From: Nitrospinaceae bacterium
GTDB taxonomy: Bacteria; Nitrospinota; Nitrospinia; Nitrospinales; Nitrospinaceae
Direction: 5' to 3'
NCBI GenBank assembly: GCA_029261395.1
Contig: JAJDBJ010000080.1
Location: 1-61,515 of the forward strand
Length of the DNA stretch: 61,515 nucleotides
This document shows positions 24,151-29,741 of this stretch, piece after piece. The position numbers and the translations under genes were made by a program. The notes under the pieces were generated by a model, which searched no databases, was not told the DNA's origin, and saw only the letters and a program-made list of their open reading frames with translations. Positions within the stretch are counted from its first letter, which is position 1. Each line of letters begins with the position of its first letter.

Positions 24151-24783
24151 TTATTCCAGAACCAAATGAACCAGGTTGCGAAAGGATTGAACCCCCGCCT
24201 GCGTCCAGTTGAGTTCTGGGAAGGATTTGTCCGATACTGGAAAAACTCTCATCAGTTTCAGGTATTGGAGGTGATCGGCTGTCTCCTGAATTTCTTTTTT
24301 GGAAAGATCGGAAACGTTTGAGAAATGAGTTTCACTGAATTCCCATTCCCACGGACTGGCGTGTTTGGAAAGATAAATATTTTCGCAAGCGGCATCCTGT
24401 CGGTTTTCTTTCAGCCGGTTTACGTAGGCACCTAAGTCAGGGCCTTTCAGTAGGAGTGAAAAGCCAAGGTAGTGTCCCCACCAGAAGAGCGTGCGATAAG
24501 TAAAGAACTCCGTTTTTGAGAATTTTTGTGGAATGTCAAGAGAGAGAAAAGGAAATCCTTTATGATTTTCTCCCCTGGCGATTTGGCCTTTGGTCAGATC
24601 CGTATCCGGTGGATAGGGTTTGGGATAAGTTTTTAATTCCTCTACCAGCGCAGAGCGCAACTCCTGAAGATAACTGTCCACCTTTTTCAAGATGGCAGGT
24701 TTGTGCCTGAAGATTTCCGTAACGTTGATCAAATCCCATTCGTCGCGAGACCAATGCGTAGAGTTTTCATTAGTGGTTTTCAT
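24151..24783 (-). CDS. Protein of unknown function (210 aa)
   Basis: I do not recognise the family. The sequence is rich in aromatic residues (FFTYRTLFWWGHYLGFSLLL near the middle) and is predicted mostly helical and soluble, with that stretch possibly a buried helix rather than a membrane span. No metal or nucleotide motif stands out. It lies 27 bp downstream of the PilZ gene on the same strand, so it may belong to the motA-motB-PilZ transcript. Confidence 0.65.
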   Translation of the reverse strand: MKTTNENSTHWSRDEWDLINVTEIFRHKPAILKKVDSYLQELRSALVEELKTYPKPYPPDTDLTKGQIARGENHKGFPFLSLDIPQKFSKTEFFTYRTLFWWGHYLGFSLLLKGPDLGAYVNRLKENRQDAACENIYLSKHASPWEWEFSETHFSNVSDLSKKEIQETADHLQYLKLMRVFPVSDKSFPELNWTQAGVQSFRNLVHLVLE

Positions 24784-24810: not shown

Positions 24811-25185
24811 TCAGAAATTTTGGGATCGGAGGTCTTCTTTTTGACGAACCAAAACGTAACGGTGGAGAGAATCTTCGGAATCGACATCCAGGTTAATGTA
24901 ATTACACCGGCAAATGTCCTCTTCATCAATGCGTAAAATTTTTATCTGGGTTTTGATAAGGCCTCCCGTAGGCAGGACGAAGTCGATCATATATACGGAA
25001 CCTGCCTTGAGCCCCTGATTTTTAAATGCCAGTCCACCGGAACTGACTTCCACGACTTCCAGGGAAGCCCCTTCCAGATTAAGGAACAGAGGGTTTTCCG
25101 AATCGGGTGCGACTCGGTACGCCTGGCGCGCTTCTTCCGGTGGTTTTAATTTCTCTTCCTTTTTATTTTTCTTTTTCCAGAACAA
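24811..25185 (-). CDS. PilZ-domain protein overlapping motB
   Basis: The 124-aa protein has a lysine-rich N-terminus (MFWKKKNKKEEK) and a PilZ-type barrel with RQAYR (the RxxxR element) and EVSSGGLAF (the second motif, with Glu in place of Asp/Asn). PilZ proteins bind c-di-GMP. It overlaps the end of motB by 23 bases, so it is probably translated by coupling and works with the stator. Confidence 0.78.
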   Translation of the reverse strand: MFWKKKNKKEEKLKPPEEARQAYRVAPDSENPLFLNLEGASLEVVEVSSGGLAFKNQGLKAGSVYMIDFVLPTGGLIKTQIKILRIDEEDICRCNYINLDVDSEDSLHRYVLVRQKEDLRSQNF

Positions 25186-26650
25186 ATTCGACCCTCCTGT
25201 TGGTGGCTTGCCCTAAAACCGAATCGTTAGAAGCTATAGGGAATATATCGGCATATCCGGTGGCGGTCAACCGTTTAGGGTCAATGTTTTTATCGATGAA
25301 ATACCTCAAGACTGCTGTGGCTCGGGCTGAAGACAACTCCCAATTGGATGGAAAACGATCAGTAGCAATGGGAGAATCGTCAGTGTGTCCTTGAACGCTT
25401 ATGCGATAACGAGGATAACTATCCAAAATCCGGACGATTTCGTCCAGTACCGGCTTGCTTTTTTTTAGATCGAGATTAGCATTTCCGGGTTCAAACAGAG
25501 ATCCTCCAGGGATACGAATGACGACTTTGGTGCGGTCCGTTGAAATATCCATGATTGCATTCATGGCTTCCCGGTCAGCGACGTGTTGAATATCCGATAA
25601 TATATTGTCGGATTTGAGTCCGGTCAGCAATTGGATCGATTCCTTCTTTTTGACTTCAACGGAATCTAAAAGCTCCAGTAATCCGATACTGGCGGATTCG
25701 GTTCCGAGGATAGCCTCCTTGAACTTGTTGTTCGCGATAGAAGATAATGAATAATACAAAATGAAAAACGTTAAAAGAAGAATAGCCATATCGGCATAGG
25801 TGGTCATCCACAAGGGTGAGGACTTGTCATCAATCGCTTCATCCATGAACTCGGCTAATTTTTTTCTGGTGAAACGGGATCGTTTCAGTTTTTTTCCGAC
25901 GCTTTCCTCTGCTCTTTTAACCTCATAGTCCAATTCAGATTTGAATTTTTTTCTTTGTAGAACGAGTTCTTTTTCCAGGTCATCTTTTTCCGATTGCAGT
26001 TCGGTTAATTCCTTGCGTACCTGTTTGACAATTTCCGCTGGAAACTGGGTGTCGTCTTCTTTCTCGAAATCACCGTCGAGAAGCTTTTCGTATGTTTTGA
26101 TCAGATCTTCCTTCTCTTTAATCAGCTGTTCGAAACGTTCCCGCGATTCGTCATCCAGTTTGTCTACCCGCTCTTTTTTATTTTTCAGGGAAGGGGCGGG
26201 CTTGGTGTCTTTTTGAAGACGTCGGATTTCCCGGGTCAATACTCCTTTTTCATCGGACAGCCGTTCTTTGGCTTTGCGCTCCTCTTCGATTTTTTGGGTC
26301 AGTCGGGAGTTTTTGTCACGCAGTTCCTTCAGCAGTGGGTTTATTTTCTCAGCCAGTTCAGGAGATCCTTCCAGAGCCGGACCCTTGGTAGTGGATGCGG
26401 AGGCAGTGCTTCGATTACTGCCTGAACTTGTTATAGTGGATCGCTGGTAGGAAATGGATTTTTGTAAGCGGAGTTGCTCTTTTTTCTCAGTCACCTGCTG
26501 TTGCAGGTCATTGATTTTCTTGCCGGTTACTGCCAGCAAATGCTTGATTTTTACTTCCTGCCGGTTTTTTTCAGCATTCGTTTTTTTTAGCTCAGTATTT
26601 TTAATTCGGAGCTGTTCTTTGACCTGTTCCAGGTTTTCTCTGTTTTCCAT
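25163..26650 (-). CDS. motB: MotB-type stator protein with long N-terminal coiled coil
   Basis: MotB anchors the proton- or sodium-driven stator to peptidoglycan. The single transmembrane helix (YADMAILLLTFFILYYSL, about residues 285-303) has the ion-coupling Asp in YAD. The OmpA-like peptidoglycan-binding domain (about 375-490) contains GHTDDSPIATDRFPSNWELS and LTATGYADIFP. Unusually, some 280 residues precede the membrane helix, most of them charged heptad-like coiled coil; typical MotB has about 25. motA lies upstream by 21 bp and a PilZ gene overlaps downstream. Confidence 0.85.
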   Translation of the reverse strand: MENRENLEQVKEQLRIKNTELKKTNAEKNRQEVKIKHLLAVTGKKINDLQQQVTEKKEQLRLQKSISYQRSTITSSGSNRSTASASTTKGPALEGSPELAEKINPLLKELRDKNSRLTQKIEEERKAKERLSDEKGVLTREIRRLQKDTKPAPSLKNKKERVDKLDDESRERFEQLIKEKEDLIKTYEKLLDGDFEKEDDTQFPAEIVKQVRKELTELQSEKDDLEKELVLQRKKFKSELDYEVKRAEESVGKKLKRSRFTRKKLAEFMDEAIDDKSSPLWMTTYADMAILLLTFFILYYSLSSIANNKFKEAILGTESASIGLLELLDSVEVKKKESIQLLTGLKSDNILSDIQHVADREAMNAIMDISTDRTKVVIRIPGGSLFEPGNANLDLKKSKPVLDEIVRILDSYPRYRISVQGHTDDSPIATDRFPSNWELSSARATAVLRYFIDKNIDPKRLTATGYADIFPIASNDSVLGQATNRRVEFVLEKEK

Positions 26651-26671: not shown

Positions 26672-27445
26672 CTATTTTTTTACGAAGAAAGGTCTGCGTG
26701 GTCTCCGCTTCTTCGCAGGAATATAAGACGACAATTTTTCATAAACGAAAATTGGATTGTTGTCTTCAAGAATAGATATGGCTCCCTCAAATATGATCTC
26801 AAGCTTGATGACTTCTACCAGAGTCCGATCTTTAAGCTTTCCGGCGATAGGCAGAAAAAATAAGGTCGACAACAGCATTCCATAAAAAGTTGTCAGTAGC
26901 GCCACGGCCATGGCCGGCCCAATGGTCTCGGGGTTGGAGAGCTGACTTAACATTTGCACCAGCCCGATCAGGGTTCCCATCATTCCAAAAGAAGGCGCGT
27001 AAATTGCCATTTTTCTGAAAACATCCTGAACAATAAAGTGCCTTAGCTTCATGGATTCAATTTCAATATGAAGTGTATCCCGGATCAGATCTTCCTTGGA
27101 GCCGTCCGCAATCAGGTTGCAGGCTTTTCTGAGTAAATCATCCTCGATATTCATACGGCTCAATGCGATCAATCCCTGGCGGCGGCTGATGGTGCACAAC
27201 TCAATCATGGTTTCCACCATGTCGTTGGGATCCTGTTTTTTTTCTGTGAAAACAAAAAATGCCGCTTTAAAAGCGGAAATTACATCTTTCAGTTGGAAAG
27301 TAATTAAAGTGGCGGCGATCGTTCCCCCGAAGACAATCATGAACCCTGGCAAATTGAAGAAATTGTCCAGATGGCCATCAATGAAGATGGCACCCACGAT
27401 GAGAGAGATCCCTAATATAATTCCTACGAGGGAAGCAGCATCCAC
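26672..27445 (-). CDS. motA: MotA/TolQ/ExbB-type stator protein MotA
   Basis: MotA forms the stator channel with MotB. The 257-aa protein has four predicted membrane helices (about 4-22, 33-50, 148-170, 180-200), including the pore-lining APSFGMMGTLIGLVQML and GPAMAVALLTTFYGMLLSTLFFLPIA. A cytoplasmic loop (about 65-145) separates the helix pairs. It precedes motB by 21 bp. Confidence 0.9.
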   Translation of the reverse strand: MDAASLVGIILGISLIVGAIFIDGHLDNFFNLPGFMIVFGGTIAATLITFQLKDVISAFKAAFFVFTEKKQDPNDMVETMIELCTISRRQGLIALSRMNIEDDLLRKACNLIADGSKEDLIRDTLHIEIESMKLRHFIVQDVFRKMAIYAPSFGMMGTLIGLVQMLSQLSNPETIGPAMAVALLTTFYGMLLSTLFFLPIAGKLKDRTLVEVIKLEIIFEGAISILEDNNPIFVYEKLSSYIPAKKRRPRRPFFVKK

Positions 27446-27623: not shown

Positions 27624-29741
27624 TCAGTCGGATTCGGGGCGGGGAGGGCCTGTTTGAAGGAACTGGGTCATATCGGCAGGGGACAGAACCGGGCTCAGCA
27701 TGATTCCCTGTCCCAGGTCACAGCCGGTATCTTTGAGGAAAGCCAATTGTTCCTCTGTTTCCACTCCCTCAGCGATCGTCTGCAGTTCCAGGTTTTGGGC
27801 CAGCGAAACCACGGCTTGTATAATGGCGCTATTGGCTTTCAGTTGGTGCTCATGGACGAAGGTTTGATCGATTTTCAGGCTGTGAATAGGCATGTCCTTT
27901 AAATATTTCAGAGAAGAAAAACCGGTGCCAAAATCGTCGATTGACAACCGAAGCCCAAAATCGTGCAAAGTCTTCAGGCGGGTAATGGCGTTAGCGGAAT
28001 TTTCCATAAGGATGGTTTCGGTCAACTCCAACTCCAGAAGTCCCGGGTCGACCCCGGCTTGGACCACCTGCCTTTCCACCTGCTGAGCAAAATTGTCCTG
28101 ATTGAACTGGTGACCCGAAAGGTTGACGGCCACGTTGATCGGATTCAACCCCATAGACTTCCACATTTTGATCTGTTGGCATGCGGTCTGAAGAACCCAT
28201 TGCCCAATTGGTAGGATCAGGCGATTTTCTTCTGCCGCCAGAATAAACTCCAGAGTGGGGACCCAGCCCTTTTCGGGGTGGCACCACCGTATCAACGATT
28301 CCATGCCGGCCAATTGTCCGGTTTTCAGATCAAACTTGGGCTGGTAGTGCAGTTCGAATTCTTCACGCTCTAACGCTTTCCGTAAATCCGTTTCCATATC
28401 GACTTTTTTTGCCGATTGGAACAGGAAGGCGGGGTTGTAATATTGAAAAGAATGTTTGTCCTTTTCCTTGGCAGTCCACAAAGCGGCTTGTGCATTTTTG
28501 ACCAGAGAGTGCGGATCTTTGCCGTCATGGGGATAAAGAGAGATTCCCATGGTGGAGCGTATGCTGACATCCTGATTGTTGATTGTGAACAGAGGATCCA
28601 GTGTTTGTAGAATTTTTTGAGCCATCAGAGTGATAAACCGCTGGTGGCTGGCGCCACTCAAGATCAGGAGGAAATCCTCACCTTCCAGTCGGGCTACCGT
28701 GTCCTCTTTTCGCAGGCATCTTTCCAGTCGCTTTCCAATATCCTTGAGTAGCAGTTCCCCCATGTGAGGATTGAGAGAGTGGCTTATGGATTGGAAGTTA
28801 ACAATATTTACAATGACCACCGCAATTAACTTTTCCGTACGATCCGCCTGGGAGATGGCGACACTCAACCGATCCTTGGCGAGTGCTATGTTAGGGAGAT
28901 TGGTTACCGGATCGAAATATGCCAGGGTCTCCAGACGTTCTTCCATCAGTAACCGTTCGGTTTTGTCTACGGCCATTGCAACATAAAGAGGGTTTGAGTC
29001 TTTCTGTAAAAGTTTAAAGCGGATTTCAGAATTGTATTGTGTGCTGTTTTTCCTTTGATGAATACCTTGAAACGTGACAAAGGAGTTTCCGTTGTTGTGA
29101 AGAGGCCGCGATAAATTATTGAATATGTCGGGTGTCAGGTTCTTGATGACATCGAAGAGGGTGCGTTTTGTGATTTCATCCTTGCTGTAACCGAGGTTGT
29201 TCAACGCCAGCGAGTTGCCGCGAACAAAATGATGATCGGTGGAGTCGAAGATATAAATCTCATTGGGAGAATCGTCCAGGATGCGAAGCAAATGAACTGA
29301 TATTTTTTCCTGGGCTTCCTTTTTCTTGTAACCCATCGCCAGGTCACTGATGTTGCCCCGGGACCGTTCTGACAAGGTGCTTAGCAGGGAAAATAGAAAT
29401 TGATCATCGGATGCCAGTAGAGAATCAAACTGTGGTTTGGTGATTTCAATTAAAGTGACTTGGTCCGTCGCTTGAACCGTTGCAGAACGGTTTTTTGATT
29501 CGATGATGGCCATTTCTCCAAAAACATGTCCGCTGTTGATAACGGATATTTTCTGGCCTTCTTTCAAGATGGTAAGATGCCCGCCCAGGACCGCGTACAT
29601 GTGGTGGCCCGGATCACCATCTTTGAATAAAGTCTCTCCCGGCTGCAAAACAATCGTTTCACACTGTTCCGAGAGCTCTCTCAAAGTGGAGTCAGGCAAA
29701 GATTTAAACAGCTCGACGTCTTTTAATTGAACCAAATTCAT
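27624..29741 (-). CDS. cNMP-binding/PAS/GGDEF/EAL signalling protein
   Basis: The 705-aa cytoplasmic protein has a cyclic-nucleotide-binding domain (1-130; PGETLFKDGDPG, GHVFGEMAIIESKNRSAT), a PAS domain (about 155-270), a GGDEF domain (about 280-435) and an EAL domain (about 450-695). The GGDEF motif reads EGEDF, so diguanylate cyclase activity is doubtful. The EAL motif is ESL and the catalytic core (NLSGHQF, ELTETILMEN, DDFGTGFSSL, LKIDQTFV) is kept, so it is probably a c-di-GMP phosphodiesterase tuned by the other domains. It lies 178 bp downstream of motA on the opposite end of the same block. Confidence 0.88.
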   Translation of the reverse strand: MNLVQLKDVELFKSLPDSTLRELSEQCETIVLQPGETLFKDGDPGHHMYAVLGGHLTILKEGQKISVINSGHVFGEMAIIESKNRSATVQATDQVTLIEITKPQFDSLLASDDQFLFSLLSTLSERSRGNISDLAMGYKKKEAQEKISVHLLRILDDSPNEIYIFDSTDHHFVRGNSLALNNLGYSKDEITKRTLFDVIKNLTPDIFNNLSRPLHNNGNSFVTFQGIHQRKNSTQYNSEIRFKLLQKDSNPLYVAMAVDKTERLLMEERLETLAYFDPVTNLPNIALAKDRLSVAISQADRTEKLIAVVIVNIVNFQSISHSLNPHMGELLLKDIGKRLERCLRKEDTVARLEGEDFLLILSGASHQRFITLMAQKILQTLDPLFTINNQDVSIRSTMGISLYPHDGKDPHSLVKNAQAALWTAKEKDKHSFQYYNPAFLFQSAKKVDMETDLRKALEREEFELHYQPKFDLKTGQLAGMESLIRWCHPEKGWVPTLEFILAAEENRLILPIGQWVLQTACQQIKMWKSMGLNPINVAVNLSGHQFNQDNFAQQVERQVVQAGVDPGLLELELTETILMENSANAITRLKTLHDFGLRLSIDDFGTGFSSLKYLKDMPIHSLKIDQTFVHEHQLKANSAIIQAVVSLAQNLELQTIAEGVETEEQLAFLKDTGCDLGQGIMLSPVLSPADMTQFLQTGPPRPESD

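Follow-up and report, generated by a model that had tools for sequence, protein, structure and literature searches.

The window, by which we mean the whole 61,515-nucleotide stretch of Nitrospinaceae DNA analyzed here, encodes on its minus strand, in the order motA, motB, pilZ, a second, PomAB-type stator beside the canonical short MotAB of the same genome. The system is real, conserved and of more interest than a chance overlap of genes. On balance, and with only modest confidence, we favor reading it as an auxiliary flagellar stator of the PomAB type, whose gating by c-di-GMP runs through PilZ at the loop of MotA and whose lineage-specific MotB stalk docks or tethers.

Gene content of the locus

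Coordinates refer to the window. We call stators of the window's type class A.

26672..27445, minus strand: motA, 257 aa, PomA-type stator A subunit; residue 96 is Ser and residue 97 is Arg
25163..26650, minus strand: motB, 495 aa, with a 280-residue cytoplasmic N-terminal region (MotB_plug E 7.4e-12, OmpA E 6.6e-17)
26471..26650, minus strand: MotB residues 1-60, conserved tip (KEQLR..ELKK), homologous by HMM to the tip of an adenylate-cyclase-linked MotB
25811..26470, minus strand: MotB residues 61-280, comprising the end of helix 1, a low-confidence stretch and helical segments 97-148, 154-192 and 205-273
25730..25810, minus strand: MotB membrane/plug segment, from W281; D287 is the conserved ion-site Asp
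25166..25618, minus strand: MotB periplasmic OmpA/MotB peptidoglycan-binding domain, from Pfam and fold match
24811..25185, minus strand: pilZ, 124 aa, PilZ domain only, with RQAYR, EVSSGG and a C-terminal helix HxYxLxRQK
25163..25185, minus strand: motB/pilZ overlap, 23 nt, with a TTG start and a Shine-Dalgarno sequence CAGGAGG just 5' of it, within motB
27624..29741, minus strand: upstream neighbor, a cNMP-binding, PAS, degenerate GGDEF (EGEDF) and EAL protein, from Pfam and sequence
24151..24783, minus strand: ORF4, 210 aa, syntenic, judged to lie outside the system

The motB coordinates and the 23-base overlap with pilZ in the initial annotation were correct. MotA matches PF01618 (E 3.7e-24) and MotA_N (E 2.7e-6) in Pfam. 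The upstream cNMP/PAS/GGDEF/EAL protein also occurs at L003-L006 and L045 and is missing from L044 and L047; it is possibly linked to the stator operon, in the window's family only, and may set c-di-GMP locally.

The pilZ gene and its junction with motB

The PilZ protein lacks an N-terminal YcgR domain, and PF07238 matches only residues 20-111 (E 2.4e-5, above the family cut-off). A single-sequence phmmer search (up to E 1) returned no PDB match. The TTG start of pilZ is placed behind the good ribosome site CAGGAGG, and 43 loci spread over several phyla fit a search pattern built on this junction, with TTG as the start in all. The overlap measures 23-38 nt in 39 of these loci; it is absent in L140, L141 and L143 and is 47 nt in L145, where motB is broken. 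We ruled out that the long motB is a chance ORF, since it is kept across the order and the PilZ junction recurs in 43 loci. The idea that the FWKKK start of PilZ is a by-product of the overlap is unsupported, as L140, L141 and L143 keep FWKKK without overlapping.

In 44 of the 45 class A loci whose sequence continues past motB, pilZ comes directly after it. The exception (L138) is a second copy in one genome (G024), whose other locus, L139, has an ORF for the MotB C terminus followed by PilZ. RxxxR and [D/N/E]xSxxG are kept in 30/30 class A PilZ proteins, which makes c-di-GMP control of the stator likely and bears out the earlier proposal that an extended stator is encoded together with a putative c-di-GMP receptor. 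The second motif begins with D or N in 23 of the 30 and with E in the 7/7 rows (L001-L007) that represent the window's genus and the relative nearest to it, a substitution that could weaken c-di-GMP binding. The C-terminal helix is also conserved, with H108, Y110, L112, Q115 and K116 each present in 41-45 of 45 sequences.

A long, broken, charged helical stalk in MotB

In the window's MotB, 280 residues lie N-terminal to the plug/transmembrane motif at W281; W281, T284 and D287 are invariant in 20/20 aligned long MotBs. Lys, Glu, Arg and Asp make up 45% of residues 1-275. An AlphaFold2 model (mean pLDDT 70.2) places helices at 2-70, 97-148, 154-192 and 205-273, interrupted by a low-confidence stretch rich in Ser, Thr and Gly near 71-96 and by other gaps. 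For the window's MotB alone, only segment 97-148 has a significant heptad a/d contrast (0/2000 shuffles reach its value), the other three segments being matched by 284, 167 and 1389 of 2000 shuffles. When the class A alignment is averaged, three segments show significant periodicity: 97-148, 154-192 and 205-273 (19, 7 and 0 of 2000 shuffles). The period of the third is 3.61, which is not that of a heptad, and segment 2-70 falls short of significance (479/2000). Because only some segments are periodic and the helices are broken, the region is fairly described as a long helical stalk, charged and broken, that forms a coiled coil in part. What had been described as a 280-residue coiled coil thus retains its 280 charged, mostly helical residues; the coil itself is broken, with heptads in parts only.

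Across class A, the stalk ahead of the plug spans 121-361 residues. Residues 11-20 are as strongly conserved (0.72) as some of the periplasmic domain, against 0.29-0.60 elsewhere in the stalk, and internal stretches are poorly conserved. The periplasmic domain aligns to MotB-like 3khn (VIA-align Z 21.7, rmsd 3.4, 152 residues aligned) and to PomBc5 3wpw (Z 19.9, rmsd 2.2, 145 aligned); the fold search matched this domain alone, and the stalk is barely probed by such a search.

More than 150 residues precede the plug in 4 of the best 80 loci of the GTDB collection, all from Nitrospina/Nitrospinaceae, and two further loci of that set have 100 and 121 residues. Five of the 80 were unparsed by the pattern; four of these are short-tailed judging by the printed start, and the fifth, L058, was shown separately to be short. 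In the rest of the taxonomic class, the MotB frames among those listed reach at most 317 aa. In the open-licence PMC literature, we found no account of a long cytoplasmic MotB stalk, of a MotB beside an adenylate cyclase, or of Nitrospina stators.

A second stalked stator, linked to adenylate cyclase, shares the tip

A further stator type, class B, also has a stalked MotB. In all nine loci with an intact neighborhood (L033-L040 and L042; L146, cut and rearranged, was left out of the count), the gene for the stalked MotB is followed by one for a class I adenylate cyclase and then by that for MotA, the cyclase standing in place of a PilZ gene. An adenylate cyclase is also present in L055 and L060. 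Throughout the order, class B looks like an operon that joins a stator to a cyclase; the window's genome is without it. A pentapeptide-repeat protein adjoins class B, recognized by Pfam in L037 and by similar sequences in L033, L038 and L042.

An HMM of the class A tip (residues 1-60) matches the N terminus of 9 of the 10 class B MotBs, with scores of 27.6-51.2 bits. Scores stayed at or below 7.3 bits for plain shuffles and 20.3 for heptad-block shuffles, and, apart from the MotBs, every ORF of the searched loci scored 12 bits or less. The tenth class B MotB, of L146, has a receiver domain where the tip would sit. Within class A, the tip is absent from 8 of 42 MotBs, all of which have stalks of at most 240 residues and retain PilZ. 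The class B MotB core forms a separate clade (support 100/100) that is not sister to class A. The separate core together with the shared tip implies that the tip was exchanged or recruited twice. Common descent of the stalked MotBs as whole genes is unsupported by the MotB-core tree, and the MotA tree concurs. That c-di-GMP-linked and adenylate-cyclase-linked stators have a stalk in common suggests direct wiring of motors to second messengers in these relatives of marine nitrite oxidizers.

Other long MotBs were seen in passing. Two loci (L146:1922-3742, plus strand; L151:1720-3852, minus strand) encode an N-terminal receiver domain (PF00072, E 1.2e-20 and 9.2e-20), long helices, and plug plus OmpA. 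Two more (L043:2024-4730 and L153:2338-4751, both minus strand) represent a further stator type with a PilZ gene upstream of MotA, and their MotBs give a weak helix-turn-helix match at the N terminus. A third long-MotB type (L041:6627-8429, minus strand; L152:2531-4435, plus strand) comprises MotBs whose lengths are 600 and 635 aa, whose plug is preceded by >370 residues and whose partner MotAs are unlike those of class A.

The torque loop of MotA

The window's MotA aligns without gaps to PomA (8bri) over 247 residues (1-247, E 2.7e-47), and its best NCBIfam match is PomA PRK08990 (E 7.7e-68; 228.5 bits, below the equivalog cut-off of 341). Thr occupies the positions of PomA T158 and T186, at which Thr is linked to Na+ coupling; the residues suggest that the class A stator is coupled to Na+.

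We take PomA E96 to be equivalent to E. coli MotA E98, a FliG contact, and PomA R88 to E. coli R90. Class A MotAs have Ser (34) or Gly (5) at the E96 position (39/39), and Arg at 88 is retained in 39/39. In the MotA and MotB-core trees, class A groups with Desulfobacteraceae, Desulfarculus and some Gammaproteobacteria, forming the clade with overlapping pilZ genes discussed below. Across the named collection (75 MotAs), the 15 members of this clade carry G, S, A or M at the E96 position and the other 60 carry E (54), D (5) or a gap (1), so that in total 54/54 MotAs of the overlapping-PilZ clade have no acidic residue there. E is found at this position in the short MotA of the window's genome, in 10/10 class B MotAs, in 2/2 other MotAs and in a Desulfovibrionaceae pair whose PilZ gene does not overlap. 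Being lost in the clade and retained elsewhere, E96 marks the overlapping-PilZ clade by its absence. Given Ser or Gly at residue 96, we call the class A stator a derived, stator-like relative and do not file it as a standard PomAB.

In E. coli, MotA R90 and E98 are conserved charged rotor-contact residues, and E98 pairs with R281 in the contact (PMC12505986). The loss of E96 could mean that the stator no longer drives FliG at all. The C-tail helix of YcgR binds the E. coli MotA residues that contact FliG, and YcgR suppressors map to Q91, G93 and S96 of the MotA loop (PMC12713396). From these contacts and the conserved C-terminal helix of PilZ, we infer that PilZ docks at the MotA loop.

Proposed mode of action

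By homology, the stator would assemble as MotA5:MotB2, and PilZ would be made from the end of motB by coupled translation. Loaded with c-di-GMP, PilZ would most likely dock, through its C-terminal helix, on MotA's torque loop in the cytoplasm, in the manner of YcgR, and there brake, clutch or gate the auxiliary stator. The motor would most likely be able to take up this stator in addition to the standard one, with PilZ deciding whether it engages, and the missing acidic residue would plausibly make it a weak or conditional engine. The stalk, presumably added later, in the window's Nitrospinota order, would not be the PilZ receptor. As its tip is common to both stators, it would most likely dock both on a common cytoplasmic partner or scaffold.

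A bolder version, which we put forward tentatively, treats the stators of this order as signaling hubs: a docking tip would have been grafted onto two unrelated MotBs, tying motors to second-messenger systems, and rotor contact would have been partly given up, with PilZ, and not charge pairing alone, deciding engagement. If true, the ties would run to c-di-GMP via PilZ, to cAMP via class I adenylate cyclase and to a phosphorelay via the receiver-MotB fusions.

It is doubtful that the stator is more a sensor than an engine, its cytoplasmic part reporting engagement or load to second-messenger proteins, on the side of c-di-GMP here, of cAMP in the cyclase-linked stator and of a phosphorelay in the receiver-MotB fusions. 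The long MotBs of the order that are tied to adenylate cyclase or fused to a receiver (L146, L151), the altered torque loop of the PilZ-linked MotA, and the EAL protein with its cNMP domain upstream in the window's family are all consistent with such a role. However, PilZ is an output (receptor) domain and not an enzyme.

We also doubt that the stalk is a lineage oddity, acting as a passive spacer or dimer stabilizer with no specific partner. Its variable length, its poorly conserved inner stretches and the loss of the tip in some class A MotBs would fit a spacer, but residues 11-20 are conserved like parts of the periplasmic domain, and a homologous tip occurs in a non-sister stator.

Association with flagella

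The window's genome (G000, Nitrospinota) comprises 2.94 Mb in 84 contigs and is 97% complete; the relatives with names among the genomes scanned are Nitrospina and Nitrospinaceae. The class A system is present in 45 of 61 relatives, including one genome (G006) recognized by fragments and one (G034) with a broken motB. Among genomes at least 90% complete, 22 of the 24 that have an intact FlhA carry it, as against 0 of the 4 that do not (Fisher p 7e-4, only a guide because related genomes are not independent). Over all 61 genomes, the counts are 44 of 52 with intact FlhA and 1 of 9 without, the lone case (G009) being 72% complete with FliG present. Two flagellate genomes at least 90% complete (G028 and G032) are without the class A system, which is therefore dispensable.

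Checking the window's genome for flagellar genes, as had been proposed, revealed many of them together with the canonical short stator. Contig C17 carries FliM, FliN, FliO/P/R, FlhB, FlhA, FlhF and FlhG and, ~15 kb past FlhA, a canonical short MotA/MotB of 273 and 264 aa (names were given by sequence recognition, except for FlhA and MotAB). Neither FliF nor FliG_C was detected in this genome; FliG_C is present in 50/61 genomes. As fliF and fliG are usually adjacent, a missing contig or assembly gap is likely; the genome's own flagellum may be incomplete.

The initial annotation had raised the possibility of a stator specialized for another machine, such as gliding or a non-flagellar motor; envelope or secretion work would come under the same reading. 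The stalked-MotB locus does lie on a different contig from the main flagellar cluster, the genome already has a canonical short MotAB, and the acidic torque residue is gone. We consider this reading unlikely, because the system is missing from all four near-complete genomes without intact FlhA, FlhA is present in 17/17 genomes bearing the sister-clade and Desulfovibrionaceae PilZ loci, and MotA aligns to PomA without gaps.

Several genomes appear to be stages of decay. In G034 (L145), a broken motB stands next to an intact PilZ gene; in G012, the FlhA frame is interrupted by a stop codon and a MotB plug was not found; G015 has lost both FlhA and the stator and still has ORF4.

Separate distributions of stalk and PilZ

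Phylogeny, another check proposed at the outset, placed class A within a clade of PilZ stators and showed the stalk and PilZ to be distributed separately. In the sister-clade loci that could be parsed, motB is short, with the plug at residue 19-45. Nevertheless, pilZ overlaps the short motB in 13 of the 14 sister-clade loci with room for it. The sole miss, L068, has an apparent decayed PilZ reading frame, and L059, which is without room, starts a PilZ frame. An overlapping pilZ was found in 0/57 other loci. In two Desulfovibrionaceae loci, PilZ lies 53-54 bp downstream of motB.

The stalk as docking site or lever for PilZ, that is, a direct c-di-GMP brake through the coiled coil as first suggested, is quite improbable: the two occur together in 44/45 class A loci, but PilZ accompanies a short MotB in the sister clade, is retained in L140-L143, L050, L132, L136 and L137 despite a shortened, tipless stalk, and is missing from the stalked adenylate-cyclase stators. 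Together, these findings go much of the way toward the pattern that the initial annotation had named as contrary to its idea, a coiled coil common in flagellar MotBs of relatives that have no PilZ partner. These separate distributions also rule out the stalk and PilZ as one co-evolved unit. Since the two arose separately, the stalk serves something else, probably docking.

It is still disputed whether c-di-GMP stops flagella at the stator or at the rotor. Across the several phyla with an overlapping PilZ, the acidic torque-loop residue is always lost, with the MotB stalk present or not. Evolution has separated these variables, which offers a natural test of PilZ action at the MotA loop.

Comparison with known systems

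The known precedent for a motAB-pilZ operon is MotL of Shewanella putrefaciens. Like the window's protein, MotL is PilZ-only, is encoded right after motA-motB of a secondary stator and lacks the YcgR N domain (PMC8203827). It also has conserved c-di-GMP motifs, of which the window's protein keeps RxxxR and has E in place of D/N in the second. The MotL gene lies 34 bp downstream of motB of a lateral-flagella stator (PMC8203827), whereas here pilZ overlaps motB; the window's stator further differs in its 280-residue MotB stalk and in a MotA without the acidic torque residue. Within the literature searched, the stalk, the shared tip, the cyclase-linked stalked stator and the PilZ-tied torque-loop change are new.

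With PomAB (Na+-type, FIT, TGI4; PMC12505986), the window's stator shares the gapless MotA alignment and a PomBc5-like periplasmic domain. It has a PomA-alignable A subunit, a plug and transmembrane Asp with an expanded OmpA-like domain, and co-occurrence with the flagellum. It differs from PomAB in having Ser for E96, a long stalk and a PilZ partner in the operon. As in the YcgR, FlgZ and MotI brakes, PilZ is expected to act at the stator A subunit and has a conserved C-terminal helix; unlike them, it is without the N-terminal YcgR domain, and its gene is joined to the stator operon by overlap.

ZorAB and GldLM resemble the window's stator as 5:2-type motors with long cytoplasmic parts. ZorA, of an anti-phage motor, has a long cytoplasmic tail, and GldL of the gliding motor has a cytoplasmic tail as well. 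In both, it is the pentameric A-type subunit that carries the long part (for GldL, PMC9389320), whereas here the MotB dimer carries it and the 257-aa MotA is tailless. The generic ion transporters (ExbBD, TolQR, AglRS, GldLM) are defined by a condensed cytoplasmic domain and no expanded OmpA-like domain (PMC12505986). The window's stator falls outside this definition, and its MotA is PomA-like, not ExbB-, AglR- or GldL-like.

ORF4

ORF4 was considered as a fourth component and dropped, as it is present in the stator-less genomes G012 and G015. It lies on contigs other than the stator's in G016, G018 and G022 and at a distant site in G031. Searches of Pfam and NCBIfam gave no match to ORF4, and its model (pLDDT 88.9) had no significant match in the PDB, the best being bilin reductases (PcyA/RCCR; E 0.012, TM <0.4). 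ORF4 was found only in this order, in 49 of 77 Nitrospinota genomes.
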